Origin: Vulcanimicrobiota bacterium
GTDB lineage: Bacteria; Vulcanimicrobiota; Vulcanimicrobiia; Vulcanimicrobiales; Vulcanimicrobiaceae
Direction of reading: 5' to 3'
NCBI GenBank assembly: GCA_003136355.1
Contig: PLED01000066.1
Span: 1 to 33,722, forward strand
Length of the DNA stretch: 33,722 bases
In this document: piece after piece, positions 7,536 to 22,224 of the stretch
How the letters are laid out: every line of letters begins with the position of its first letter
Numbering within the stretch: the first letter of the stretch is position 1
The notes under the pieces: model-generated
Seen by the model: only the letters and a program-made list of their open reading frames with translations
Databases searched by the model: none
What the model was told of the DNA's origin: nothing
Program-made: the position numbers and the translations under genes

Positions 7536-9020
7536 TCAACGCCGAGCTATGGAATCAATCGCCGCGACGACGGCCGGGTCGGCCGCATCGCGCACACCGT
7601 TGAACAGAAAAGCGAACGCCACTCGCCCGTGGTGCCTGGTATTCACATACCCCGCCAGCGCAGAAACCGAGGCCAAGTGGCCGCTCTTGGCGCGTACGCG
7701 CCCGCTCGCTTGCGAGAAATGGTACCGCTTCAGCGTGCCGTCCAAGCCGCCGCGGGCGAGCAAGGGATAGAGCGCGTTGCCCCGCTCATCTGCATCGCTG
7801 TGCGCGAGCAGCCGTACGAGCGTTATCGCCGCGACACGGTTTGCATCGGCTAGCCCGCTGCCGTCTACGAGACGCAGTCCCGGGGCGGGAATGCCCTCGT
7901 TCTTCAACACCGCGCGCTCGGCGGCAAGCCCGTGCGCATCGTCGGCGCGTCCGCGCGCCGCGCCCAGCGTTCGTAAGAATTGTTCGGCGAAATGATTGTC
8001 CGAGAAAATCATCATGTGGTGCACGAGTTGCGTCAACGCAGGCGACGGATGATCCCAAAGCGTCTGCGCGTTGCGCGGAACTTTCGCGGCCTGCGACCCG
8101 CGCGCCACGCTGATCCCCGCATCGCGCAAGAATCCCAAAAGCACGACCCCGGCATAATGCGGAATATCGTGCACCGGCAAATAGAACGTGTGGTGTCTGC
8201 CCGGCGGGATCGTTCCGGACAGCCGGAAGACGCCGGGCGTTCCCATCGCCGCGATGGTCACGTCGTCCGCAGATCCGCTTGCAATCGATCCGAAGAAACT
8301 TACGGTGCGGCTCCGCGGTTTGACGCGCACGCCCGCCGGAAGGCCGGTCGACGTACCCGCTATGCGAAACTCAACCGTATCTTCGTCAATGGAAACTCCG
8401 CTGGTCGGCGCCATGAAATCTTCGTTGGCGTCGCCCGGATTCCAGTACGGGTTGAGCTCCGGGCCCGCCAGTACACTCGCGTCAACGGCAACGCCGCCTT
8501 CGATTGCGCGAATGCCAGCCGCGCGAAGTTTTTCGACGCCGCGCCGCACGTCGTCCGAACGCAGCGATGGATCTCCGGATCCAACGAGCCAAAAATCGCC
8601 GGCGATAACGCCGTTGCGGGGCGGCAGCGCGCTTGCAAAGTGCGTGTGAAACCGGTAACCGGAATTGAATTGCGCGAGCGTGACGGCGCCCACGATAAGC
8701 TTCTGCGTCGAAGCCGGAACGACGGCGTGGGCACTTCGGTCGGAGTAGAGCAGCGTGCCATCCTGCGCGACGACCGCGCAGCTCCAGTCGTAGGAGAGCG
8801 CCACTGCCGGAGCCAGCGCTTGCGCGACTGCGCTTCGCAAGTCGCGTTTTGCCGCCTCTCCCCAAGCCGGAGCCGCGCGACGGTGCGCCACGGCGATCGC
8901 ATGCGGCGGAGCGACCGGCGAATGCGCGCATCCGGCCAGCATCGCAAGCGCGACGAAGACGGTGCGCTTAAGCGCGGGAAATCGCGTCGAGCTTTTCTTG
9001 GATTTTGCGGTGTTCTTCAC
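7536..9020 (-). CDS. dacB: D-alanyl-D-alanine carboxypeptidase/endopeptidase, PBP4 type (family S13), probable lipoprotein
   Basis: This enzyme trims or cleaves peptidoglycan stem peptides in the periplasm. The three penicillin-binding motifs are present: S-x-x-K at 104-107 (VVPASTQKLIVGA), S-D-N at 340-342 (MMIFSDNHFAEQ) and K-S-G at 445-447 (RVRAKSGHLASVS). The large insertion between the first two motifs and the GSGDPSL element (147-153) are typical of the PBP4/S13 family rather than PBP5. The N-terminus has a lysine-rich start, a hydrophobic stretch and a lipobox LAGC with Cys31, so it is probably a lipoprotein. At 494 residues its length is normal. The GTG start overlaps the aminopeptidase gene by 53 bases, which is long but needed to include the whole signal peptide. 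Confidence 0.92.
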   Translation of the reverse strand: MKNTAKSKKSSTRFPALKRTVFVALAMLAGCAHSPVAPPHAIAVAHRRAAPAWGEAAKRDLRSAVAQALAPAVALSYDWSCAVVAQDGTLLYSDRSAHAVVPASTQKLIVGAVTLAQFNSGYRFHTHFASALPPRNGVIAGDFWLVGSGDPSLRSDDVRRGVEKLRAAGIRAIEGGVAVDASVLAGPELNPYWNPGDANEDFMAPTSGVSIDEDTVEFRIAGTSTGLPAGVRVKPRSRTVSFFGSIASGSADDVTIAAMGTPGVFRLSGTIPPGRHHTFYLPVHDIPHYAGVVLLGFLRDAGISVARGSQAAKVPRNAQTLWDHPSPALTQLVHHMMIFSDNHFAEQFLRTLGAARGRADDAHGLAAERAVLKNEGIPAPGLRLVDGSGLADANRVAAITLVRLLAHSDADERGNALYPLLARGGLDGTLKRYHFSQASGRVRAKSGHLASVSALAGYVNTRHHGRVAFAFLFNGVRDAADPAVVAAIDSIARR

Positions 9021-11463
9021 GCAATGCGTCGAGGTCGGTGCGCAGCCCCGTCACGGCCGCCGGCGTTTTTTGCCTTTCGCGGATGCGCGCTGCAGCTTCG
9101 GTCGCGTCGCGCCGCAGCCGTCCGTCGAAACCCGTCTGCGCCAAACGATCCAGCGGAGCCAGTAAATGTTGGTCGGCCAAACGCTCGGCGGCGATAACCC
9201 CGCTGCGCGAAATGAAAAAATTGGGGTCCCGGATGGCGCCGGCGATCGCGTCGACGGCGGCTGCACGTTCGGATTCCAGCAGCTCGGCTTGCCGCGCCAG
9301 CGCGAGCAGCGCCGCTCCGCGCGTCGCAACGTCTCCACCGGGTTTCGTAAGATCCAGCAACAGCGGCGTCGCGCGCGGATCGGCAAGTTCTCCCAGCCCC
9401 AGCGCCGCTCCCGATTCGATGACGCCATTCCACGATGTGGTACGCGCAGCGTCGCGTAAAATCTTGAAGGCCTTTTCGCTGCGCGTTTTTCCAAGCGCAT
9501 GCAACGCGGAGCGCTGAACAAAATACGACTCGTCGCCCGTGGCCGGAGCGATCAACGCTTGCGCAACTGACGGTTCTCTAAATCTTCCGAGTGCATCCGC
9601 GACTGCGCGGCGCACTTTGGGATGCGGGTGGGTGAGGGCTCCGAGCAACAGATCGCGCGCCCAGGCGGCTTGCGTTTTTCCGAGCGCAGCGGCCAGTTCG
9701 GCGGCAACGCCCCAAAACACACCGCCTTTGAACGCCGCTTCCACAGCCGATCGTGCCTGTGCGCTTCCGTCTCTCACGAGCTCGCGCCCGGCCCGGATAC
9801 GCGCAACGACGGAGGGATCGCCGGCCAGCGCCGCCGACGAAAATACCACACCAAGCGCGTACGTCACGTCGCCCAAAATGAAAGCGCCCGGATCGAACCG
9901 CACGAGTTTTGGTTCCGAATCCAGCGGAATCGTTATAGTTTCATGTTCGCGTTCGACCTGTACGCGTATGCGCCGTTCGTCGACTTCCACGTCAACGCCG
10001 AACGCAAACGCCGGATTCTGCGCGTCGACGGGCTGGGTTTGATCGATCGTCAGCGTCAGCGCGCGCCGGCCCGCGTCGTAGGTTGCGGCGACGCGAAGCT
10101 GCGGATGCCCGGCGCCGAAGATCCAGCGGTCGAAAAACCCGCGCAGATTTCGCCCGGTGGCTTGCTCGATCGCGCGTATGAGATCGATCGTCTCGACCGA
10201 ACGCTGCGCGTTATCGCGAACGTATCGCCGCAGTGCGCGCCAAAAACGTGCTTCCCCGAGCTCGCCCCGCAGCATGTGTAGAACGGCGCCGCCTTTTTCG
10301 TAGAGATGCCGGTCGAAAAGTTCGATCGGGTCGCGGTAATCGTTGCAGACGATCGGGCGCCGGTACCGCTGACGGTCTTCATCCAGATATCTCTTGACCC
10401 ACTCGAAGACGTCGTAGATATATTCGTCGTAACCGAGATCGTCCTCGCGAAACACGCCTTCGAAGAACGTGGCGAAACTTTCGTTGAGCCACGCTTGTGA
10501 CCAATCGCGGCACGTGAGCAGATCGCCGAACCACTGGTGCGCGAGCTCGTGCGCCACCAGCGGGTCGCTGGAAAAATCCAGATGCGCGCGCGCGTCGTGC
10601 AGCGTGCGATCGGTCTGCGTCGTCGCCGATGTGTTTTCCATTCCGCCGAAGATAAAATCGGAGACGGCGATCTGAGAATAACGCGCATACGGATACGGAC
10701 AGTCGAGGCGCTGTTCGAAAACGGCCATCATCTGCGGGGTCTTTCCGAAGGCGCGCTCGCCGTCGGCTTCCCGGCCCGGAAGCACGTAATAATAGATGGG
10801 AACGCTCGCGCCGGGTTGCGCGACCTCGGTGAAAGGCCCGGCCACCATCGTCACGAGATACGTCGCGTGTGGAATCTCTTGGTTGTAACGGAAGATCGTC
10901 TTCCCGCCTTCGTCGCGGCGTTCGACCTGGGCGCCGTTTCCTAAAGCGAACTGGCCTTTCGGAACGGCGATCGTTGCCGACGTGCTCTGCTTCTCGTGCG
11001 GATAGTCTAAACACGGGAACCAATAGCGCGCGTTCTCGTCTTGAGACTGCGTCCACGCATGGCGGATTTTTTTCGGATATTCCGCCGAGGGTTCGACGAA
11101 GAACAACCCGTGCCGGGGATTTTCGACGCTATAGGTTATCGCAAACGTCGCCGTCGTTTCGGGCGCTAGCGGCGGGTCGAAATGGACGTCCAGGCGGTCG
11201 CCCCGTGGCGTGAACTTGAGCTTGCGCCCGTCCGATTCCACCGAAGAAACGTTGAGGTCCACGGCGTCGAGCGTCAATAGCGCAACGGGCTCGTCGAGCG
11301 CGCGTACTGTCATCGTGCAAACGCCCTCTAAGCGGCGCCGTTCCAAATCCGGAACGAGGTTGAGATCGATGTGCTGTACGTCGACCGTCTTGTCGGGACC
11401 GTAGTGCAGCGTCGAACCGGGCAGCGCAAAGGCGCGTCGCTCGTTCGTGTCGTCGAAACTCAT
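8968..11463 (-). CDS. M1-family zinc aminopeptidase with C-terminal HEAT repeats
   Basis: This 831-residue metallopeptidase removes N-terminal residues from peptides. The exopeptidase motif GGMENTSATT (273-282) and the zinc site HELAHQWFGDLL (305-316, His305, Glu306, His309) with the third ligand Glu328 in WLNESFATFFE are intact. Residues about 30-210 form the N-terminal beta saddle domain. From about 580 the sequence turns into helical HEAT-like repeats (for example HPHPKVRRAVADALGRFREP and DESYFVQRSALHALGKTRSE). These replace the usual ERAP1-like C-terminal domain. The end (LREEHRKIQEKLDAIS) looks like a short coiled coil. No signal peptide is seen, so I infer a cytoplasmic enzyme. It overlaps the SDR gene by four bases (ATGA) and the dacB gene by 53. 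Confidence 0.93.
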   Translation of the reverse strand: MSFDDTNERRAFALPGSTLHYGPDKTVDVQHIDLNLVPDLERRRLEGVCTMTVRALDEPVALLTLDAVDLNVSSVESDGRKLKFTPRGDRLDVHFDPPLAPETTATFAITYSVENPRHGLFFVEPSAEYPKKIRHAWTQSQDENARYWFPCLDYPHEKQSTSATIAVPKGQFALGNGAQVERRDEGGKTIFRYNQEIPHATYLVTMVAGPFTEVAQPGASVPIYYYVLPGREADGERAFGKTPQMMAVFEQRLDCPYPYARYSQIAVSDFIFGGMENTSATTQTDRTLHDARAHLDFSSDPLVAHELAHQWFGDLLTCRDWSQAWLNESFATFFEGVFREDDLGYDEYIYDVFEWVKRYLDEDRQRYRRPIVCNDYRDPIELFDRHLYEKGGAVLHMLRGELGEARFWRALRRYVRDNAQRSVETIDLIRAIEQATGRNLRGFFDRWIFGAGHPQLRVAATYDAGRRALTLTIDQTQPVDAQNPAFAFGVDVEVDERRIRVQVEREHETITIPLDSEPKLVRFDPGAFILGDVTYALGVVFSSAALAGDPSVVARIRAGRELVRDGSAQARSAVEAAFKGGVFWGVAAELAAALGKTQAAWARDLLLGALTHPHPKVRRAVADALGRFREPSVAQALIAPATGDESYFVQRSALHALGKTRSEKAFKILRDAARTTSWNGVIESGAALGLGELADPRATPLLLDLTKPGGDVATRGAALLALARQAELLESERAAAVDAIAGAIRDPNFFISRSGVIAAERLADQHLLAPLDRLAQTGFDGRLRRDATEAAARIRERQKTPAAVTGLRTDLDALREEHRKIQEKLDAISRA

Positions 11464-12262: not shown

Positions 12263-13051
12263 CTAGCTTGAGTACGCGATGGTTCGCGTTATCGTGATTC
12301 CGTTTGGCGAAGTTGAGGTGAGTTGGATGCGCACGGAACCGCCGGAAACGACGTTCAGCGATATGGGAACGCTAAAGTTGCCGTTGCCGTCGGCCGTTGT
12401 GTCGATCGCATAATTGCCGCGCGGAACCTGGAAGATGCCGCCAAGCGCGGCCGATGTCGACTGCGCGACGATGTGGACGGTCGAACCCGGGCGCGTGTGG
12501 CCCGAGAGCGTGAAGTTCCCGCCGACCTGCGAGTTGGCGGCCGGGCTTAAACGATTGAGCACATTGGCCGAGGGATTTCCCTGACCCGGAATCGGCGTCG
12601 CATAGACCGGCGGCGCATTGGAGCCGTTACCGTTGATGTACACGGTATTGTTGGACGGATTCCAATTGACCGCCGCACCGAGCGCCTGCGCGACGAAGCG
12701 CAGCGGAACGAGCGTACGCGCGCCGACTAAGAATGGCGCGACGTCCATATACAGCGTTTGCCCGTCCACCGTTGCGGCGGTGGATCCGATATGCAAGTGC
12801 ACGCTGCGGCCATTTCCTTGCGCGTTAATATCGTTATTGGCGTACACGACGCTCGCGCCGAGGCGTTCGAAAACGCCGCGCAGCGGTACGAAGACTCTCC
12901 CGGCGCGCTCGATGGGCGGCTGGTCGAATGAGACGGTCGCTCCGTTTACGACGACGTTAACTGCGGATTGCGCGGGTGCGTTGGCGGCCGCCAAACTCGC
13001 AAGAAGTGTCGCGGCCAGCGCCGTTGCCGCGAGCCGTTTTGCCATGATCAT
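12263..13051 (-). CDS. secreted stalk-domain protein (copper amine oxidase N-terminal domain) with Ig-like C-terminus
   Basis: The 262-residue exported protein starts with a signal peptide (MIMAKRLAATALAATLLASLA, cut near A-N-A-P-A-Q). Residues about 30-145 are a copper amine oxidase N-terminal-like stalk domain, marked by two repeats of the form R-x-F-V-P-L-R (RVFVPLRGVFERLGASV, 47-63, and RTLVPLRFVAQALGAAV). No oxidase domain follows. Residues about 165-262 look like an Ig-like/bacterial adhesive fold (LSPAANSQVGGNFTLSGHTR). Such stalk domains decorate cell-surface proteins and bind cell wall or matrix; exact role unknown. GGAGG lies nine bases before the ATG. Upstream there is a promoter candidate and a hairpin covering this ribosome site; downstream there is an intrinsic terminator. 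I therefore read it as a monocistronic, individually controlled gene. Confidence 0.85.
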   Translation of the reverse strand: MIMAKRLAATALAATLLASLAAANAPAQSAVNVVVNGATVSFDQPPIERAGRVFVPLRGVFERLGASVVYANNDINAQGNGRSVHLHIGSTAATVDGQTLYMDVAPFLVGARTLVPLRFVAQALGAAVNWNPSNNTVYINGNGSNAPPVYATPIPGQGNPSANVLNRLSPAANSQVGGNFTLSGHTRPGSTVHIVAQSTSAALGGIFQVPRGNYAIDTTADGNGNFSVPISLNVVSGGSVRIQLTSTSPNGITITRTIAYSS

Positions 13052-13104: not shown

Positions 13105-13133
13105 CTTATAGCGGCAAGCGCTCGGCAGGTTAA
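13105..13133 (-). promoter_or_regulatory. sigma-70-type promoter candidate for the stalk protein gene
   Basis: The minus strand reads TTAACC (13133-13128), a 17-base spacer, then TATAAG (13110-13105). This matches 4 of 6 and 5 of 6 consensus bases at the ideal spacing. The -35 overlaps the stop codon of the RND gene. A start near 13098 would give a leader of about 47 bases holding the hairpin. Confidence 0.45.
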
Positions 13134-16100
13134 GAGGCCGGAACTCCGGCGGCGATTCCCCCGCCCTGGGGTTGAAGCTCTTGGCGCACCGCCTTTGCAT
13201 CCGCGCGCCGTTCGAAGTAGCCCATCCAGGTGTTGTAAACCATTGGCACGATGAAAATCGTCATCGCCAGCGAGCTCAACAAGCCGCCGATAATAACCGT
13301 TCCCATTGCCGTGCGCCATTCGCCGCCTTCGGCGTACCCGAGCGAGAGCGGAAGCATGCCGAAGATCATAGCCGCAGTCGTCATTAAAATCGGGCGGAAC
13401 CGCGTGGCCGATGCGCGCAAAACCGCGTCGCGCACGCGCATGCCGCGCTTCACCAGTGTGTTGGAATAATCGACCAGCAAAATACCGTTCTTCGAGACCA
13501 ACCCGAAGAGCATGATGATGCCCAGCATCGAGATGATGTTGAGGGACTGGCCTTGCTCCGGCTGGACCTTGCCCATCACGGCCAGAAAAACCAGCGCGCC
13601 GATAATCGCCGGGGGGAGCGAGAACATGACGATCAACGGTTCGAGCCACGAGCTGTACAGAATCACCATCAGAATGTAGACCAGCACGAACGACGTGAGC
13701 AGCGCGATGCCGAGGTTGACGATCGTCTCGCCTACCCATTGCGCATTCCCTTGCGCGGCCGGCGTAATGCCCGAAGGCAAGAATCCAGGCTCACGCATTT
13801 TTTTCTGCAGCGGTGTGATCACTTGGCCGGTCGAGTAGCCGGGCATTAAATCGCTGAAGACGTTCACGACGCGCTGGCGGTTTAGCCGCTCGATGCGTGT
13901 CGGCGCCTTGGTCCAAGTAAACGTCGCGAGAGCACCCAGCGGCACGAGCATTCCGTTGTTCGCGCGCACGCGCACGTTTTGAAGCGAGGAGACGGCATTG
14001 CGATCGGCCTGCGGAAACTGTACGCGGACGTCGACCAGACCGTTAGGAGTGCGAACCTTGGTAGCAACAGCTCCGCCGACTGCGATGCGCGCAATGTTGG
14101 CGGCGGCCGCGGGTGCGACCCCCAAGAGCGCGGCCTTCGACTGATCGATGTCTACGTTCAAGCGCGGAGCAGCGATCTCGGCGGACGTTTGCACGTTCAC
14201 CGTCCCCGGAACGGTGCGCAGGAACCTCGCGATTTTTTCCGCCGCCGGCCCAATCTGATCTTCCGGGCCCGTAATGGCGTAAGAAACTGCAGATCCGCCG
14301 CCGCCGCCGCCCTCTGCCGCTACTTCGAACTCGCCGCCCGGAACCAAATACCCGAGCTTGCGGATCTGAGCGACCGCTTTATTCGTATCTTTGATGTGCT
14401 TGTCGTCCATTTGCGCGGTCACTTGCGCGAAATTACCGCCCGTGGTGGCGCCGAATCCGGACGGCTTACGGCCCACCGTCGAACTCACGGATTTTACGCC
14501 CGGCATCTTCATGATAACGTTTTCAAGCTGGCCGACGAACTTCGACGTCGTCGCAATCGGCGTGCCGGTCGAGTAGCTCACCGTCATGTTGATGACGCCC
14601 GTTTGCTGCGCCGGAAAGAAATCAAAATTAATGCCGCCCAGCAGAGACATGACCAATCCAAGCGCAATCGGCCCAGCGAGTGTGGCGATCGTGAGCGGCC
14701 GGTAGGTCCCGAGCGAGCTCAAGCCGCGCAACATCGCGGTAAACGGATTCTTCGCCCCAATCTTGTTGTAGCCGAACATGCGCAGCACAAAACCCAACGC
14801 ATAGAAACCGGCCGTCACGACGACGATGAAGATATCCATCATGACGATAGTCATGCCGCCGCCGCCTACGAGCAGGACCGCATTGAGGACTAAGACGACG
14901 CAGGCAAAGATGACGAAGCTGCCGTGTGCCAGCGCGAACGGGAGCAGTTTGGCCTGGTAGTATTCGGTAAACGCTTCGTAGCGGTGCACGATGAAGTTCA
15001 GCACGAGCAGCGCCACAATGAACACCGCGAAGACGTTGAGCAAGAACCAGCCCGTCATGTTGCCCAGCAAGAACATGCCGACCGCGACCACGAGCAAAAT
15101 GAGGTCAAGGAGACGATTGTCGAGCGCGCGGACCCACTTCGGATCGCCCTCGGAGCGGTTCAGCATGCTCCACTTCGCCGCCAGCAGCGGCGTCAGCGTG
15201 AACGATACGAAGAGCGAGAACAGCGTCGCGGTTACAACGACGGCGCCGTACTCCTTGAGATACTGGCCCGTGATTCCCGGCAAGAACGCGATCGGCAGGA
15301 AGACGACGACGTCGACCATCGTGATGGCGATCGCGGCGCCGCCGATTTCGGACCGGCCGTTGATCGCCGCATCCACCGGCTTCTGTCCCAAGTCTCGATG
15401 TCGAGCGATGTTCTCCAAGACGACGATCGAGTCGTCGACCAGGATACCGATGATGAGCGAGAGCCCCATCATCGACAAATCGTCGATATGGAAACCGAAG
15501 ATTTTCATCAGGATGAATGTCGAAAGAATCGAACTCGGAATCGCCACGAGCACCACGACGGCGTTGCGCCATGCGTGCAGGAAGAGCATCATGACGATCG
15601 CGGTCAGGAAGATACCTTCGATCAGCGACTGCCCGACGCCCCACAATTCTTTGGCGGTGAAATCTCCCGGCGCGTCTTCTTCCGTGAATTGCAAGTGCGG
15701 GAACCGCGCTTCGATCGCCGCCATCTGCGTGCGGGCGATCTTGGTGGCTTTGATCTGGTCGGCGTCGAGGGTCGGGTTGATCGAAATGTAGACGCGCGGT
15801 TTGCCGTTAAAGTGCGAGATCGTGCGCAGCTCAAGATGGCTATCGTAAACGTTTGCAACGTCCGCGATGTGCAAGCCGGTCGCCGCGGCTCCCGCAATGG
15901 GCAGCGGGATCGCAAGAATGTCGCCGGTGTTGTTAATGTAGGAGTTTACCGAAACGGTCGCCTCTTGCGTCGGCTGCGTCATCAGACCGCCGGGCACGTT
16001 GAGATTATCTGCGGAAACGGCGCCGAAGATATCGGTGAGCGTCGCGTTCGTGGCGAGCAGTTTGCCCGGGATCGGCTCGACGTGAAACTCGCGGTTGGCC

Positions 16101-16639
16101 GACCCGTAAACGTCGACCGACTGGACGTTGGGAATTTGTTCGATGAGCGGTTGAACTTGGCTCGTGATCACGTCGGCTATCTCGGCCTGTGAGAGCGACC
16201 TGGAACTCACGGCAATGTCGAGCAGCGGCGGCTGCGAGCTGCCCGCCTTGATCACGTTGGGCGGATCGACGTCGTTGGGCATGTAGATGCGGGCGGTATC
16301 CGTACGGCGCTGGACGTCGACGGCGGCGAGATCGATATTTGTGCCGAGTTTGAAAAACACGGCGACCGAAGCCTGACTCTCTTGAGCTGTCGCCGTGATG
16401 TGATCCAGATTGTCGATGCCGGCCATCTGGTCTTCGATCGGTTTGACGATCATCCGTTCCATGTCTTGCGGTGAGGCGCCGGGATAGAACGAGCTCACCA
16501 CGATGACCGGAAACTCCGTGCCCGGCGGATTGGAGCTGCGCCCCAGCTGCAGGAATGAAATCACACCGAAAACCGCGAGTGCTCCGAAGACCACCCACGT
16601 GATAATGGGACGATTGATCGCAAACCGGGTCAACCACAT
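13130..16639 (-). CDS. RND-family efflux transporter (HAE1/AcrB-like) with extra membrane insertion
   Basis: This is a 1169-residue proton-driven inner-membrane exporter. The N-terminus (RFAINRPIITWVVFGALAV) is the classic RND helix 1. Helix 4 has the proton-relay pair D402/D403 (IIGILVDDSIVVLENIARH) and helix 10 the lysine (MLFGLVSKNGILLVDYSN). The periplasmic pore domains are normal. The protein is about 130 residues longer than AcrB. The extra sequence, about 505-640, lies between helix 6 (LTPLLAAKW) and helix 7 (PLTIATLAGPIALGLVMSLL) and contains four hydrophobic stretches (about 511-527, 531-550, 574-592, 597-620). A six-glycine run lies in the second pore domain. No adaptor (MFP) or outer-membrane channel gene is next to it. 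ATG 16639 has only a weak AAGGATC before it. Substrate is unknown. Confidence 0.93.
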   Translation of the reverse strand: MWLTRFAINRPIITWVVFGALAVFGVISFLQLGRSSNPPGTEFPVIVVSSFYPGASPQDMERMIVKPIEDQMAGIDNLDHITATAQESQASVAVFFKLGTNIDLAAVDVQRRTDTARIYMPNDVDPPNVIKAGSSQPPLLDIAVSSRSLSQAEIADVITSQVQPLIEQIPNVQSVDVYGSANREFHVEPIPGKLLATNATLTDIFGAVSADNLNVPGGLMTQPTQEATVSVNSYINNTGDILAIPLPIAGAAATGLHIADVANVYDSHLELRTISHFNGKPRVYISINPTLDADQIKATKIARTQMAAIEARFPHLQFTEEDAPGDFTAKELWGVGQSLIEGIFLTAIVMMLFLHAWRNAVVVLVAIPSSILSTFILMKIFGFHIDDLSMMGLSLIIGILVDDSIVVLENIARHRDLGQKPVDAAINGRSEIGGAAIAITMVDVVVFLPIAFLPGITGQYLKEYGAVVVTATLFSLFVSFTLTPLLAAKWSMLNRSEGDPKWVRALDNRLLDLILLVVAVGMFLLGNMTGWFLLNVFAVFIVALLVLNFIVHRYEAFTEYYQAKLLPFALAHGSFVIFACVVLVLNAVLLVGGGGMTIVMMDIFIVVVTAGFYALGFVLRMFGYNKIGAKNPFTAMLRGLSSLGTYRPLTIATLAGPIALGLVMSLLGGINFDFFPAQQTGVINMTVSYSTGTPIATTSKFVGQLENVIMKMPGVKSVSSTVGRKPSGFGATTGGNFAQVTAQMDDKHIKDTNKAVAQIRKLGYLVPGGEFEVAAEGGGGGGSAVSYAITGPEDQIGPAAEKIARFLRTVPGTVNVQTSAEIAAPRLNVDIDQSKAALLGVAPAAAANIARIAVGGAVATKVRTPNGLVDVRVQFPQADRNAVSSLQNVRVRANNGMLVPLGALATFTWTKAPTRIERLNRQRVVNVFSDLMPGYSTGQVITPLQKKMREPGFLPSGITPAAQGNAQWVGETIVNLGIALLTSFVLVYILMVILYSSWLEPLIVMFSLPPAIIGALVFLAVMGKVQPEQGQSLNIISMLGIIMLFGLVSKNGILLVDYSNTLVKRGMRVRDAVLRASATRFRPILMTTAAMIFGMLPLSLGYAEGGEWRTAMGTVIIGGLLSSLAMTIFIVPMVYNTWMGYFERRADAKAVRQELQPQGGGIAAGVPAS

Positions 16640-16818: not shown

Positions 16819-18126
16819 CTACTTAATGGCGTTGGGGTCAAGCGCGTCACGGAGCCCGTCGCCGATGAAATTGATGGCCAGGACCGTCACCAGGATGCAC
16901 AAGCCCGGGAAGACCGCCACCCACCACTGCTCTTGAAGATTGGCCTCGGCATTGGCAAGCATGCTTCCCCAGGACGCCGTCGGCGGCTGAATGCCGAATC
17001 CGAGAAACGACAGGACCGACTCGAGGATGATCACGTTGGCCACGTCGAGCGTCGCTTGCACGGTGATCGGCGCCATGGCGTTCGGCAGCAAATGACGCAA
17101 CATGATTCGTAAGTCGCTGTTGCCGACCGCTCGGGCCGCTTCGGCGTATTCGCGTTCGCGCAGTGAAAGATAGGTCGCGCGCACCAAGCGGGCTACGGAC
17201 GGCCAGGATAATCCGCCGATGATAAGCACGATCGTTTGAAAACTCAACGCGGCCTTCGTCGAACTTGCCGCCACAATTCCCGTCAGTACTAACAAGAGCG
17301 GCAGCAGCGGAATCGACAAAAATACGTCCGTCACGCGCATGATCACGTGGTCGACGCGCTGGATCCCGAACCCGAATTGAAAACCGACGAGCCCTCCGTA
17401 CAAAACGCCGACGAGAATCATCACGTCTAATGCAAGCGGTTTGCCCGGTAACAGGATCGCAGCGAGATAGCCGGCGGCTGCGCCCGCGACCGTTACGGCT
17501 GCAATCCGCGCGGGCGATTTCGGCGGTATATTCTTGACGACGTCAAAAGCTATTTTTGCACCGAGCAGCGTCAAGACGATGAGCTGCGTCAGACCGCCGT
17601 GTAGCTGGAGCGGAAAATATCTGGCGATAAGATACCCCGCAAATGCACCGGCGACGGTAACGATCGCCAGCCACAGTACCATCACGGCGAGTCCCCACGA
17701 GAAACGTCTCCACGAAAGCGTAACCGTGCCATAGTATCCGGCGAGCGCGCCGAGTAATGTTCCAATGACCAGCTCCATGATGACAGCGGAGACCGCCACC
17801 GTGAGCGAGATCTGCGCGCCAAACATCAAACGCGACAGGAGATCGCGGCCGTTTTCATCCAGGCCCAGAAAGTGGCCGCCACACTGCGCGGCGCTCACGA
17901 AACATGGTGGAACCGGATTGCCTTGCCAATGGACTTCGTCGATTCCGTTCGGATCGAACGGCGCGAGCTTCCAGGCAAAGATCGCGACGAAGACCATCAC
18001 CGCCAGCACGACGACGCCGGCCATAGCTAACTTGTGGCGGCGAAAGCGCTTCCACGCCGTGACCTTGCTAAAGACCTCAGCTTCTTCTTCAATCATCGGT
18101 TGATTGATCGGTGCGGCGAGAGCCAT
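16819..18126 (-). CDS. peptide/nickel-type ABC transporter permease (DppC family) with four-helix insertion
   Basis: This is one of two permeases of a peptide-class ABC importer. The N-terminus has the family pattern W-x-R-F-R-R-x-K-x-A (25-34), a first helix (36-51) and GLDENGRDLLSRLMFGA (88-104). The C-terminal EAA loop is intact (EYAEAARAVGNSDLRIMLRH, 326-345), as are ILESVLSFLGFGIQPPTASW and the terminal LRDALDPN. The protein is 435 residues against about 300 for the family. The surplus is residues about 134-257, inserted between AGYYG and VDHVIMRVTDVFLSIP. It has four hydrophobic stretches (about 144-168, 179-197, 207-226, 231-252). In ordinary DppC proteins these flanks are nearly adjacent. 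It follows dppB by five bases. No binding protein or ATPase gene is visible here. Confidence 0.9.
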   Translation of the reverse strand: MALAAPINQPMIEEEAEVFSKVTAWKRFRRHKLAMAGVVVLAVMVFVAIFAWKLAPFDPNGIDEVHWQGNPVPPCFVSAAQCGGHFLGLDENGRDLLSRLMFGAQISLTVAVSAVIMELVIGTLLGALAGYYGTVTLSWRRFSWGLAVMVLWLAIVTVAGAFAGYLIARYFPLQLHGGLTQLIVLTLLGAKIAFDVVKNIPPKSPARIAAVTVAGAAAGYLAAILLPGKPLALDVMILVGVLYGGLVGFQFGFGIQRVDHVIMRVTDVFLSIPLLPLLLVLTGIVAASSTKAALSFQTIVLIIGGLSWPSVARLVRATYLSLREREYAEAARAVGNSDLRIMLRHLLPNAMAPITVQATLDVANVIILESVLSFLGFGIQPPTASWGSMLANAEANLQEQWWVAVFPGLCILVTVLAINFIGDGLRDALDPNAIK

Positions 18127-18131
18127 CTACA

Positions 18132-19106
18132 TCACTCGTACTTTACGCGCGGATCGAGCCACGCGTAGACGACGTCGGCGAACAAATTAAAGAATACGAC
18201 CAGGCATGCATTAATCATGAGAAATCCGAGCAAGATGGCGATGTCTTCTTGCCCGAGCGCCGTGATGAATAGCCGCCCCTCACCGGGCCACGCAAAAATC
18301 GACTCCGTAACGATCGCGCCGCCGAAGAGCGCAGGCAGGGTAAGGGCCGTCACCGTGACAAGCGGAATCATCGCGTTTTTCAGACCATGCTTGAAAAGGA
18401 TCGTGCGGAAACTCAAGCCTTTCGCCGCAGCGGTTCGCATGTAGTCCGTGCGGATCACTTCGAGCATCGAACTTCGCATGAAACGGCTGTAAAGGGCGAT
18501 GTTCAAAAACGCGAGCACCGTTGCGGGCAAGATCAGGTGCGAGATACGATCGCTGAGGCTGAACGTATCCGAACTGGAGATTTCGGCCGACGGCAATTGG
18601 AGAAGATACCCGAAAGGCAGCGGGATCCCGTGTACGGCCAATGCCAGCTGTAGCATGAGCGCCAGCCAAAAGACCGGCATAGATTGGCCGAAGAACGCAA
18701 ACGTCGTGATGAGATAATCCCAGGTCGTGTATGGTCTTACCGCCGCGAACAGTCCGGCCGACACGCCGATCACGATGGCGATGAAATAGGCCGTGCCCAT
18801 CAACAAGAATGTTGACGGCAAGCGCTCGACGATGGCGTTGAACACCGGCTCGGAGTTGCTCGTCGAGTAGCCGAAATCGCCGTGCAGCACTTGGCCGAGC
18901 CATGTAACGTACTGAACCGGCAGCGGCTTGTCGAGTCCAAGGTTGTGCTTGAGCCGGGCGATGTCCGCCGGAGTGATGTGGGGGTTCTGCAGATACGGTC
19001 CGAGGCCGCCGCCCGGTGCGTTGTGAATGATCAGGAAAAGGATCATCGAGATCAGCAGGAGCAGCGGTACCGCCTGGAACGTTCGCCGCACGACGTACGT
19101 AAACAA
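18132..19106 (-). CDS. peptide/nickel-type ABC transporter permease (DppB family)
   Basis: The 324-residue partner permease of the DppC-like protein. It shows the family opening (YVVRRTFQAVPLLLLISMIL, 4-23) and P-G-D-P-like region NAPGGGLGPY. The periplasmic segment LDKPLPVQYVTWLGQVLHGD (78-99 region) is typical, as are the loop YMRTAAAKGLSFRTILFKHG and the end YAWLDPRVKYE. About six membrane helices are expected. Length is normal, unlike its partner. The start is a TTG six bases after the BKACE stop; no good Shine-Dalgarno is seen, so translation may depend on the upstream gene. It lies in one operon with KamB-like and BKACE genes, which hints that the importer brings in a substrate of that pathway. 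Confidence 0.92.
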   Translation of the reverse strand: MFTYVVRRTFQAVPLLLLISMILFLIIHNAPGGGLGPYLQNPHITPADIARLKHNLGLDKPLPVQYVTWLGQVLHGDFGYSTSNSEPVFNAIVERLPSTFLLMGTAYFIAIVIGVSAGLFAAVRPYTTWDYLITTFAFFGQSMPVFWLALMLQLALAVHGIPLPFGYLLQLPSAEISSSDTFSLSDRISHLILPATVLAFLNIALYSRFMRSSMLEVIRTDYMRTAAAKGLSFRTILFKHGLKNAMIPLVTVTALTLPALFGGAIVTESIFAWPGEGRLFITALGQEDIAILLGFLMINACLVVFFNLFADVVYAWLDPRVKYE

Positions 19107-19112
19107 GACTCG

Positions 19113-19955
19113 CTACATTAAAGCTCCGCGGGCCTGCTCCTGTAGCGACCGCAGCCCCAGGATTTCGCGCGCTTTAGCGGGCGTTGCAACCGGGCGGCCG
19201 AGTTCTCCAGCGATGCGCACGACGCGCGCGACCAGCTCGTCATTGGTGGCGAGTTTTCCCCTGGAATAATAGATGTTGTCCTCGAGCCCGACGCGCACGT
19301 GCCCGCCCATTGCAATCGCGGCCATCGACATGGGCAACTGCGCGCGGCCGATGGCCGCAACCGACCACGTGCAGCCCGGCGGCAGCGAGCCGACCAGATC
19401 GCAGAGGTTCGAAACGCTCGCATCCAATCCGCCGGGCACACCCAACACGAAGTCCACGTGCTGCGGAAATTTCAGCAAGCGTTCGCGTTCGAGCTTGCGC
19501 GCGTTGGAAAGGTGACCCTTATCGAAGATCTCGAGCTCGGGACGGACGCCCAGTTCGTTCATCTTTTTCAAAATGGCGCGCATGATCGGAAAGCTGTTCT
19601 CGAAGATATCGTCGCCGAAGTTGACCGACCCGCACGTCAGCGTCGCCATCTCCGGATGCAAGTCGAGCACGCCCGCGCGCTCTTCGGGCGACATGCCGAT
19701 CGCGCCGCCGGTTGAGAACTGCACGATCAGATCGCTGCGCGCGCGAATCTGGTCGTAGGCTTCTTTGAATCGCCCGGTGTCGTGCGTGTTGCTTCCGTCG
19801 TCGTTACGGCAGTGCACGTGAATGATCGAAGCGCCGGCTTGTTGGCACTTTGCGGCGACGTCGCCCAACTGCTCCGGCTTCACCGCGAGATGCGGCGTCT
19901 GCTCGGGCGTCAGCTCCGCGCCGACGGGCGCGACCGTTACGATCAGCGGATCCAT
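19113..19955 (-). CDS. beta-keto acid cleavage enzyme (BKACE, DUF849; Kce-like)
   Basis: This family converts a beta-keto acid plus acetyl-CoA into acetoacetate and a new CoA ester; the founding member, Kce, acts on 3-keto-5-aminohexanoate in lysine fermentation. The metal-binding H-V-H-C-R motif is at 46-50. It is followed by the family segments FSTGGAIGMSPEER (80-93), EIFDKGHL (142-149), VPGGLD and HVRVGLEDNIYY (219-230). ATG 19955 is preceded by GAAGGAAAG and fits the family start; a TTG at 19973 would add six residues. At 280 residues the length is normal. It lies 20 bases after a KamB-like gene, which supports an amino keto acid substrate, but BKACE members act on many beta-keto acids, so the exact substrate is open. 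Confidence 0.88.
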   Translation of the reverse strand: MDPLIVTVAPVGAELTPEQTPHLAVKPEQLGDVAAKCQQAGASIIHVHCRNDDGSNTHDTGRFKEAYDQIRARSDLIVQFSTGGAIGMSPEERAGVLDLHPEMATLTCGSVNFGDDIFENSFPIMRAILKKMNELGVRPELEIFDKGHLSNARKLERERLLKFPQHVDFVLGVPGGLDASVSNLCDLVGSLPPGCTWSVAAIGRAQLPMSMAAIAMGGHVRVGLEDNIYYSRGKLATNDELVARVVRIAGELGRPVATPAKAREILGLRSLQEQARGALM

Positions 19956-19975
19956 TGCGCTTTCCTTCGCCAACC

Positions 19976-20890
19976 TTAGGACAGGCTCTTCGAATCAGTT
20001 TCGGAGACGGTATTTGCGTACACATCGAACACGGGCAAGCCGGTCTCGCGCGCGACCGCCTCGCGAAACGCGTCCGGCTCGAAATCGCGTTCCCGGCCAA
20101 TCGATGCAACGGTCACTGCGACCACATGCAGCGGGCGCTCGCACCGAAGCGCAACGCGTTCGGCCAAACGCAAAAACGCTTTCCCCGCGATCACGACGCG
20201 CGTCGGATCGCTCACGACGATTTGGCCCCGCGCGCCGTTCTTCATCAACGTCTCGGCCCGCGCGGCGGTCAACGCGCCCGCGATCTTCTCGTAAGGCTGC
20301 GCCGCATCGTACCCAGGCAAACACAGGCGCTGCACCAGCGCGCGCGCGTTGAGCGCCGCTTCCTCAATCGTCGCGCCCGCATCGGGACCCACGGAGACAA
20401 CGCCCGCGTCATCGCCGCCGGCCAGCGCCGCAACGCGGTCGATCGCGCCGTCCACGATCGTCTGATCGCAGCCGAACTCGCGCAACCGTTCGACGCAGCG
20501 GCGCAACTCCGAAGCTTTGGGTGGTCCGGCCAGTTCGAAGAACGCCGCGCTCCCAACGCGCGCGAACACCACCGGGCCGGCCGCGGTTTGCCATGGCGTT
20601 TCTTCGAGCAACTCGTAATCGTGGCGCGCGGAGAGCAAAGCCCGTGCGGTGGCGATCACCGTGCCGGGTTCGAGAAATAACCGCGGTTTGGCGGCGGAGT
20701 CGACCGCGTCGAACATTTCGCCGTCGCGTCCGGCCGACGTCAATCCGATCGTAAAACCGCGCCGCGTGGCAGCCGTCGCGACGGCGCGCATAGCAACGGT
20801 CTTGCCCGCGTTCTTTCCGGTGCCGACGACAAACAGCGAGGTGCGTCCACCGGAGCGTGCGAGATCGAGCAGCGCGTCGCCGGTGTTCAC
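19976..20890 (-). CDS. KamB-like P-loop protein (lysine 5,6-aminomutase reactivase subunit family)
   Basis: The 304-residue cytoplasmic protein has a P-loop GTGKNAGKT at 23-31, followed by GLTSAGRDGEMFD (49-61), KPRLFLEPGTVIATA (68-82) and a VDGAIDRVAAL segment (147-157). This series matches my memory of KamB, which with KamC restores the coenzyme B12 aminomutase of lysine fermentation. The Walker A variant with K-N-A-G-K-T also occurs in other small P-loop NTPases, so a different role is possible. The real start is the GTG at 20890, which overlaps the MntP stop (GTGA); reading on to 21145 would only add antisense-like Arg-rich sequence. The adjacent BKACE gene strengthens the call. No aminomutase (kamD/kamE) or kamC is in the window. 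Confidence 0.65.
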   Translation of the reverse strand: MNTGDALLDLARSGGRTSLFVVGTGKNAGKTVAMRAVATAATRRGFTIGLTSAGRDGEMFDAVDSAAKPRLFLEPGTVIATARALLSARHDYELLEETPWQTAAGPVVFARVGSAAFFELAGPPKASELRRCVERLREFGCDQTIVDGAIDRVAALAGGDDAGVVSVGPDAGATIEEAALNARALVQRLCLPGYDAAQPYEKIAGALTAARAETLMKNGARGQIVVSDPTRVVIAGKAFLRLAERVALRCERPLHVVAVTVASIGRERDFEPDAFREAVARETGLPVFDVYANTVSETDSKSLS

Positions 20891-21483
20891 GCCGGCAAGA
20901 ATATCTTGGCGAGAATGAATGCGATGCCGGTAAGCGCCAGCACGATGCCGGCCCACAGTTCCGCACTCTCTTCTGCGCGGCGTCCGACGATTCGGCCGAG
21001 CGTCAAGCCCAGCGCGGTCGAACAGATCGACACGACAAAGATGACGCCGAGCGAAAGCACCAGCGGCACGCCGATGTAGAGGATCGAAAACCCGATGCCG
21101 AGCGAATCCAGGCTGATCGAAAGCGATCCGATCACTAAGCCCCATCCGCGCGACATGTCGAGCGGGCGCTTTCGCTCGGACTCGCGCACCGCTTGGATAA
21201 TCATGTAGACGCCCAAACCGATCAGCGCCGCAAATCCGATGTAGCCGGCGACATTTCCGAGCAGTTCGCCGGCGATTTTCCCCAAACCGACGCCGGCCAA
21301 ATTCATCACGACTTCGGCGGTCGCGAACGCGATGCCGATGCGCACTTTTATGGCGCGCGAAGTTCCGCGCATGCCGACGCCGACGCCGACCGCAAATACG
21401 TCCAAGCCCAGAGAGAGGGCGACGACCAGAATCTTGAGGAAGTTCAAATGGGAATGGGGTTCTGGAAATTCTCGGTCTTTCAT
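20887..21483 (-). CDS. mntP: MntP-like manganese efflux pump
   Basis: The 198-residue membrane protein belongs to the MntP/YebN family, which exports Mn2+. It has six hydrophobic segments arranged as an inverted repeat, and each half carries the key aspartate motif: LGLDVFAVGVGVGM (25-38) and SISLDSLGIGFSILY. The GTALA-like region AALIGLGVYMIIQAVRES ends the first half. The ATG at 21483 gives a longer N-terminus than usual and overlaps the divergent ModB-like gene by 36 bases; a TTG at 21447 would place the two starts back to back. Neither has a clear ribosome site. It shares a four-base overlap with the KamB-like gene, though manganese export has no evident link to lysine metabolism. Confidence 0.85.
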   Translation of the reverse strand: MKDREFPEPHSHLNFLKILVVALSLGLDVFAVGVGVGMRGTSRAIKVRIGIAFATAEVVMNLAGVGLGKIAGELLGNVAGYIGFAALIGLGVYMIIQAVRESERKRPLDMSRGWGLVIGSLSISLDSLGIGFSILYIGVPLVLSLGVIFVVSICSTALGLTLGRIVGRRAEESAELWAGIVLALTGIAFILAKIFLPA

Positions 21484-22224
21484 GTAGCCGCGGCGCTCCT
21501 CATCGTCATGATGCTAGGCCCCGTGGTTGCGATGCTTGCCGCGGTGCGGCCCGGCGACGTTATCGCCGCCTTTTCCGCACCCCAAGCACGCGACGCGCTC
21601 GTCGTTTCGCTGGTTGCGTCGACCGCCGCGGTCGCGCTCGCTACGCTGCTTGGCGTGCCGGCAGGTTACGCGCTCGCGCATTCGAGCGGGCCCGCGCGAG
21701 CGATCGCACTTGCGGTGTTGGCGCTGCCGCTCGCGTTCCCGCCGGTCGCGTCGGGAATCATGCTGCTGCAAACGGTCGGCGCGCACACGCCGATTGGCGC
21801 AGCACTCGCATCGCATGGAATAACTTTTGTGGATTCGCTGCCCGGCGTGGCGCTCGCGGAGTTTTTCGTCGCCGGATCGTTTGTCGCGATCGTATCTACC
21901 GCCGCCTTTGCCACGCTCGATCCGATCTATGAAGAATCTGCGCGGACGCTAGGAGCCGGCGCCTTACGCGTTTTCTTCCGCGTCGCGCTTCCGCTGGCGG
22001 CACCCAACGTCGTGGCCGGCATCGTGCTTGCTTGGATGCGCGCGATCGGTGAGTACGGCGCGACGTCCATCGTCGCGTACCATCCGACCGCGCTGCCGGT
22101 TCAGCTCTACGTCACGCTCTCGTCGCAAGGCGTCGCTCCTGCGCTTGCACTGAGCTACGGCTTCGTGGTGCTCGCCGCGATCGCCATCGCGCTCCAATGG
22201 GCCTTGCGCCGCCGCGTCGTATAG
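21448..22224 (+). CDS. ModB/TupB-like oxyanion ABC transporter permease
   Basis: The 258-residue permease resembles those importing molybdate, tungstate or sulfate. It has about five to six helices, the loop EESARTLGAGALRVFFRVAL (EAA motif) and the family segment MRAIGEYGATSIVAYHP before the last helices. The ATG at 21448 is preceded by GAGGA seven bases away; a second ATG lies two codons on. An upstream extension to 21193 is antisense to mntP and rejected. No binding protein (ModA) or ATPase (ModC) is next to it, so the partners must lie elsewhere or be shared. The stop is eight bases before the proline dehydrogenase ATG, suggesting one transcript with unrelated genes. Confidence 0.87.
   Translation: MGMGFWKFSVFHVAAALLIVMMLGPVVAMLAAVRPGDVIAAFSAPQARDALVVSLVASTAAVALATLLGVPAGYALAHSSGPARAIALAVLALPLAFPPVASGIMLLQTVGAHTPIGAALASHGITFVDSLPGVALAEFFVAGSFVAIVSTAAFATLDPIYEESARTLGAGALRVFFRVALPLAAPNVVAGIVLAWMRAIGEYGATSIVAYHPTALPVQLYVTLSSQGVAPALALSYGFVVLAAIAIALQWALRRRVV

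Follow-up and report, generated by a model that had tools for sequence, protein, structure and literature searches.

The gene at positions 16819–18126 of the window (the whole stretch of 33,722 nt analysed here, from contig PLED01000066.1 of a Vulcanimicrobiota bacterium) encodes, by family match and alignment, a DppC/OppC-type permease with its core and motifs intact. The four-helix expansion that it carries is real, fairly recent and selected; it affects a single permease and occurs in three species of one genus. The protein is probably a working half of a peptide-importer permease that has grown from six to about ten helices. Its insert, a pair of hairpins, would have been gained once in the TM2-TM3 loop, kept by selection and later spread with dppBC by recombination. 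Two points are new here: the insert as likely two copies of one hairpin, and the grouping of dppBC against both of its flanks.

The permease and its insert

The gene and the insert are located as follows.

16819..18126, minus strand: dppC-type permease gene, 435 aa, insert-bearing (open frame; PF12911 and PF00528 above cut-offs)
17356..17727, minus strand: 124-codon in-frame insert, residues 134–257, four hydrophobic helices (alignments, hydropathy)

The minus-strand frame has an ATG start and 435 codons, and the plus strand shows many stops in the frame read. Pfam matches are well above the cut-offs, with OppC_N (PF12911) at residues 24–63 (50.9 bits, cut-off 23.9) and BPD_transp_1 (PF00528) at residues 256–432 (106 bits, cut-off 26.4). 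The solved chains most similar to it are of the DppC/OppC kind, and residues 134–257 have no counterpart in them when they are aligned. In the alignment with the DppC chain 8z1v_B, blocks 24–134 and 258–432 of the frame correspond to 22–128 and 130–297, which are adjacent in 8z1v_B. Hydropathy suggests 10 membrane helices in all, four of them in the insert at about 143–166, 179–197, 208–225 and 232–252. The sequence-only reading had described a DppC-type permease with about 124 extra residues and four helices, in which AGYYG and a second segment that normally lies almost next to it are split by residues 134–257. The Pfam matches, the 8z1v_B alignment and the hydropathy profile agree with this description.

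The named NCBIfam equivalogs (Opp4C, DppC, NikC and others) stay below their whole-protein cut-offs, the best being Opp4C with 321.9 of 350 bits, and so no named equivalog or substrate is claimed. Their matches fall in two stretches with the insert between them. Compared with DppC/OppC permeases in general, the protein has the same core sequence, OppC_N helix and permease domain, and an adjoining DppB partner, but it has 124 further residues with four helices in the TM2-TM3 loop.

The insert is located between TM2 and TM3 of the core, in a loop which we take to be cytoplasmic. Basic residues are present before helix 1 (WRRF), between helices 2 and 3 (KNIPPKSPAR) and after helix 4 (QR). Because of this arrangement, the positive-inside rule suggests that the insert enters and leaves on the cytoplasmic side and that the topology of the core is unchanged. 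With an even number of helices and with basic residues at the entry, middle loop and exit, neither the topology nor the way in which the core pairs with DppB would be expected to change. A full-length structure model from a 4-row alignment has a mean pLDDT of 37.9 and a pTM of 0.21, and the helices and topology given here therefore rest on hydropathy.

MalF, a type I importer permease with eight helices, has extra helices at its N-terminus and a periplasmic P2 loop. The present DppC is likewise a type I permease with helices beyond the core six, but its addition is internal, a pair of hairpins predicted to be attached on the cytoplasmic side.

Distribution of the insert

Of the 149 phylum genomes searched with an insert profile, three have the insert: the source genome (G000), G001 and G004. 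The copy in G001 is also 124 residues long, lies at the same site and is 75% identical. In G004 an insert at the same site is present in two pieces, with a scaffold N gap inside it. A fourth, weak match in the phylum (G008:C163, E 0.006) is in a 541–545-aa frame that looks like a many-helix membrane protein and was judged to be due to chance.

The other four of the seven genus members (G002, G003, G005 and G006) do not have the insert, and the DppC cores of the other genus members are 84–93% identical to that of G000. The TM2-TM3 loop is short in all 27 insert-free orthologues that were fetched and aligned, i.e., the four genus members and 23 further relatives. This set includes family relatives that serve as an outgroup; since the outgroup lacks the insert, it must have been gained. 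Those close relatives that have a name are recorded as Candidatus Eremiobacterota. The gain would have been a single event, in which a four-helix segment, most likely two hairpin copies, entered the short TM2-TM3 loop in one lineage of the genus.

A frame error producing a spurious open reading frame, which the sequence-only reading had named as a possible objection, was not seen: the insert is present in three genomes, with dN/dS values of 0.10–0.17. More broadly, an origin of the insert as a frame error, a chimeric assembly or a binning artefact is extremely improbable. The draft assemblies are fragmented and the N gap lies within the G004 insert, but the same insert, at 75% identity, recurs in two further genomes with a signal of selection and with gene order kept, and artefacts of this type were ruled out on these grounds.

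When transporters have acquired additional membrane helices, this mostly happened long ago and is difficult to date. If the gain occurred as proposed, this is a case of membrane-domain growth caught soon after the event, for which the insert-free sister species provide a natural control. As carriers and non-carriers are found in one genus, what four additional helices cost, what they bring and how they affect the structure is open to experiment.

Probable internal repeat and possible origin

The insert appears to have an internal repeat, which consists of two segments.

17545..17670, minus strand: first insert hairpin, repeat copy 1, residues 153–194 (42-residue ungapped match to copy 2)
17380..17505, minus strand: second insert hairpin, repeat copy 2, residues 208–249 (42-residue ungapped match to copy 1)

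In G000 the two hairpins align over 42 residues without gaps, with a score of 60 (z 6.1) that none of 1000 shuffles reached. The corresponding score in G001 is 49 (z 4.1), reached by 3 of 1000 shuffles. A control with other hydrophobic 60-mers was added because shuffles lose membrane patterning. Among 465 pairs of such segments from G000, from a pool that excluded orthologues, one reached 49, and this was a true pair of DppC paralogues. These statistics make it probable that the insert consists of two copies of one helical hairpin. Protein identity between the aligned hairpins is only 40% in G000 and falls to 31% for the G001 insert. The halves are 47–48% identical in DNA, and so the duplication is either old or was inherited from a source protein.

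The sequence-only reading had proposed a search of the insert against databases. This was carried out and gave no solid relative: Pfam, PHROGs and NCBIfam gave no match better than E 0.048, a PDB profile search gave a sole match at E 1.4, and no matches were found in viral contigs. Viral contigs were also scanned for sequences that could be added to the alignment, again with no relatives, and none of the 3168 plasmid records with a match to P0001 covers 80% of P0001. The insert has no similarity to DppB. Its junctions show only short, imperfect DNA repeats, which were not taken as target-site duplications. A limited literature search, which is no proof of the insert being unpublished, found nothing on such an insert in DppC, and the part of PMC11466899 that was available makes no mention of an expanded DppC.

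The insert could also be home-grown, i.e., TM2 of DppC itself could have been duplicated repeatedly and the copies have diverged. Against a TM2 profile, helix 1 of the insert scores 11.1 bits; just four of 400 hydrophobic fragments used as background exceed this and all four are from a DppC paralogue, which leaves helix 1 as the best non-paralogue match. In addition, the NCBIfam DppC/OppC models reach into the last helix of the insert, with stretches that start at 220–237. Helix 1 of the G001 insert is unremarkable by comparison, at 7.4 bits, as 8 of the 400 background fragments score as high; the insert gives a z of only 1.0 against its own core, and helix 1 would need an orientation reverse to that of TM2. 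A TM2 origin is considered unlikely.

Selection and possible role

The dN/dS of the insert is 0.167 between G000 and G001 (bootstrap upper bound 0.265), 0.152 between G000 and G004 (upper bound 0.244) and 0.098 between G001 and G004 (upper bound 0.199); the values for the two pairs with G000 are only rough because dS exceeds 1 in these. All three indicate that the insert sequence is under purifying selection. The positions kept in the three species are 9 of 10 in the cytoplasmic loop, 16 of 19 in helix 2 and 16 of 21 in helix 4; helix 1 is the least conserved, with 11 of 24. The insert is maintained by selection, most stringently in its loops and in helices 2 and 4. This pattern fits a docking peripheral bundle. 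From conservation and topology together, the most likely role is that of a bundle that packs or docks on DppC, the transporter or a partner. The genome encodes nine SBP_bac_5 binding proteins, with zero of them within the window.

The insert may instead be a passive, tolerated expansion of the neutral ratchet type, in which helices packed at the edge have no specific role and are kept since breakage harms folding. The rate of evolution of the insert is about four times that of the core (dN/dS 0.167 compared with 0.042 for the dppC core in the G000–G001 pair), helix 1 varies as described, and known families have no match to the insert. Conservation of the loops and of helices 2 and 4 is not what a passive expansion would suggest, nor is retention of the insert allele after an apparent exchange into another species. 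We regard a passive expansion as an appreciable possibility, although clearly short of an even chance. Also short of even is the chance of the more specific proposal that a duplicated hairpin of otherwise unknown kind serves as a selected accessory membrane module of the peptide importer of one genus, with the permease pair spreading by allele exchange.

Relationships of dppB, dppC and the flanking genes

The genes adjoining dppC are the following.

18132..19106, minus strand: partner permease of the dppB type, 324 aa, not expanded in length, apparently exchanged together with dppC (identities, length)
19113..19973, minus strand: upstream BKACE-family gene, groups with insert-free species (PF05853, identities, tree)
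13130..16639, minus strand: downstream RND pump (ACR_tran), P0002, 1169 aa, groups with insert-free species, has its own older insert (family match, tree)

dppB ends 5 bases before dppC, and with 324 aa it has the normal length that had been noted for it from the sequence. The G000 DppB is 92.6% identical to that of G004 and 91.4% to the partial sequence of G001, and 83–88% identical to those of G002, G003, G005 and G006, which lack the insert. For the RND pump and the BKACE gene, G000 is 93–95% identical to G002, G005 and G006; the BKACE identity is 95% to G002 and G005 and 90% to G004.

Trees of dppBC conflict with those of the flanks. In a tree of dppB plus the dppC core, with the insert left out, G000 joins the two other carriers, G001 and G004, with a support of 96/96, and a grouping with G002, G005 and G006 is rejected (p-AU 0.0002); for this and the other p-AU values, the groupings were named after the identities had been seen, a choice that the stated condition of the test does not cover. 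The dppC core alone places G000 with the carriers with weak support (70/77), and the alternative is rejected (p-AU 0.0014). In the RND tree, by contrast, G000 is placed with G002, G005 and G006 (100/100), and the AU test rejects G001 as its partner (p-AU 2.6e-114). The tree of the two upstream genes also places G000 with insert-free species (96/97), and a grouping with G004 is rejected (p-AU 4.8e-07). In these trees G001 is represented by a partial dppB (82%) and no upstream genes, as its contig starts inside dppB, and G004 has no RND match.

Since dppBC groups with the carriers and both flanks group with the insert-free species, it is probable that recombination brought in the dppBC allele with the insert, and the retained gene order indicates an exchange in place. 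Under this proposal an insert-bearing dppB-dppC allele would have replaced an insert-free one in the ancestor of G000 by homologous recombination; we infer this direction of transfer. DNA identity between G000 and G005 is 75–84% from about 19,060 to 16,811 and 81–93% in most blocks on either side. The identity of the G000 dppBC tract to G001 and G004, excluding the insert, is 72–87%, and in the middle of the tract (about 18,460–17,861) it is no higher than the identity to G005. Such modest values imply that the exchange is old, that the tract is a mosaic or that the donor is unsampled. The likeliest account would be that the exchange took place long ago, possibly in several steps, and that the donor was a relative of G001 and G004 outside the sampled genomes.

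These modest identities are also compatible with a history without transfer, in which an ancestor within the genus gained the insert once and both G003 and the G002/G005/G006 group later lost it, the DppB and DppC cores of the carriers being alike by co-adaptation to the insert. Co-adaptation would touch both permeases and could pull the carriers together. The losses, however, would have to be clean, each one restoring the ancestral loop length, and the tree conflict is limited to dppB and dppC and is upheld by the AU tests. A history of this kind is improbable.

The insert of the RND pump

The pump downstream of dppC has extra helices, as had been read from the sequence, and P0002 is about 118 aa longer than its G011 relative between about residues 504 and 665. 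This insert seems to contain two hairpins that are kept apart by what looks like native sequence, FTEYYQAKLLPFALAH. It is common to all six genus members with an RND match and is found, as one continuous match, in five or more further genera of the family; G008, G014, G018, G019 and G024 at least share it. Relatives in G011, G023 and others match in two blocks only and lack the insert.

The RND and DppC inserts are of similar size and both add helices inside a transporter. They differ in that the RND insert is older and present in other genera too; its occurrence in more genomes than the DppC insert implies different ages. The comparison of the two inserts proposed in the sequence-only reading showed no sequence similarity, with a score below the shuffle mean.

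The same reading had suggested a lineage habit of membrane-domain expansion, and this did not hold. Orthologues without the DppC insert, which it had listed as counter-evidence, exist in the same phylum, including four of the seven genus members, against three carriers among 149 genomes. Expansion was also surveyed between 335,057 bases of the source genome and 800,000 bases of G003, which gave 120 reciprocal ORF pairs. An identity and length filter was passed by 104 of the 120 (median identity 0.80), and 16 of the 104 have three or more hydrophobic segments. Internal indels of at least 30 residues are present in three of the 104 pairs, and only that of DppC contains membrane helices. The RND pump is not counted here, its insert being present in both G000 and G003. 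A lineage habit was rejected on the differing ages, the lack of similarity, the narrow distribution and the single helix-bearing insertion among 104 pairs. As far as these data go, the side-by-side location of the two inserts is a coincidence, and it is a warning that two odd neighbours should not be read as one lineage trait.

Gene neighborhood

Further downstream, on the same strand as dppBC, positions 7536–11463 encode an S13-type D-Ala-D-Ala carboxypeptidase as well as a HEAT-repeat aminopeptidase of the M1 type. Together with dppBC these plausibly form a peptide-use neighborhood. Directly upstream of dppB, also on the same strand, are the BKACE gene and weakly DUF1611-like genes (19113–21145), which may point to the substrate of the transporter. 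The Cu_amine_oxidN1/Big_6 protein at 12263–13051 has two neighboring matches in G002 and also in G003, which means that the genus is not uniform in how many copies there are or in how the protein is composed. On the plus strand, a frame at 21193–22224 contains an ABC-permease-like stretch, VALATLLGVPAGYALAH.
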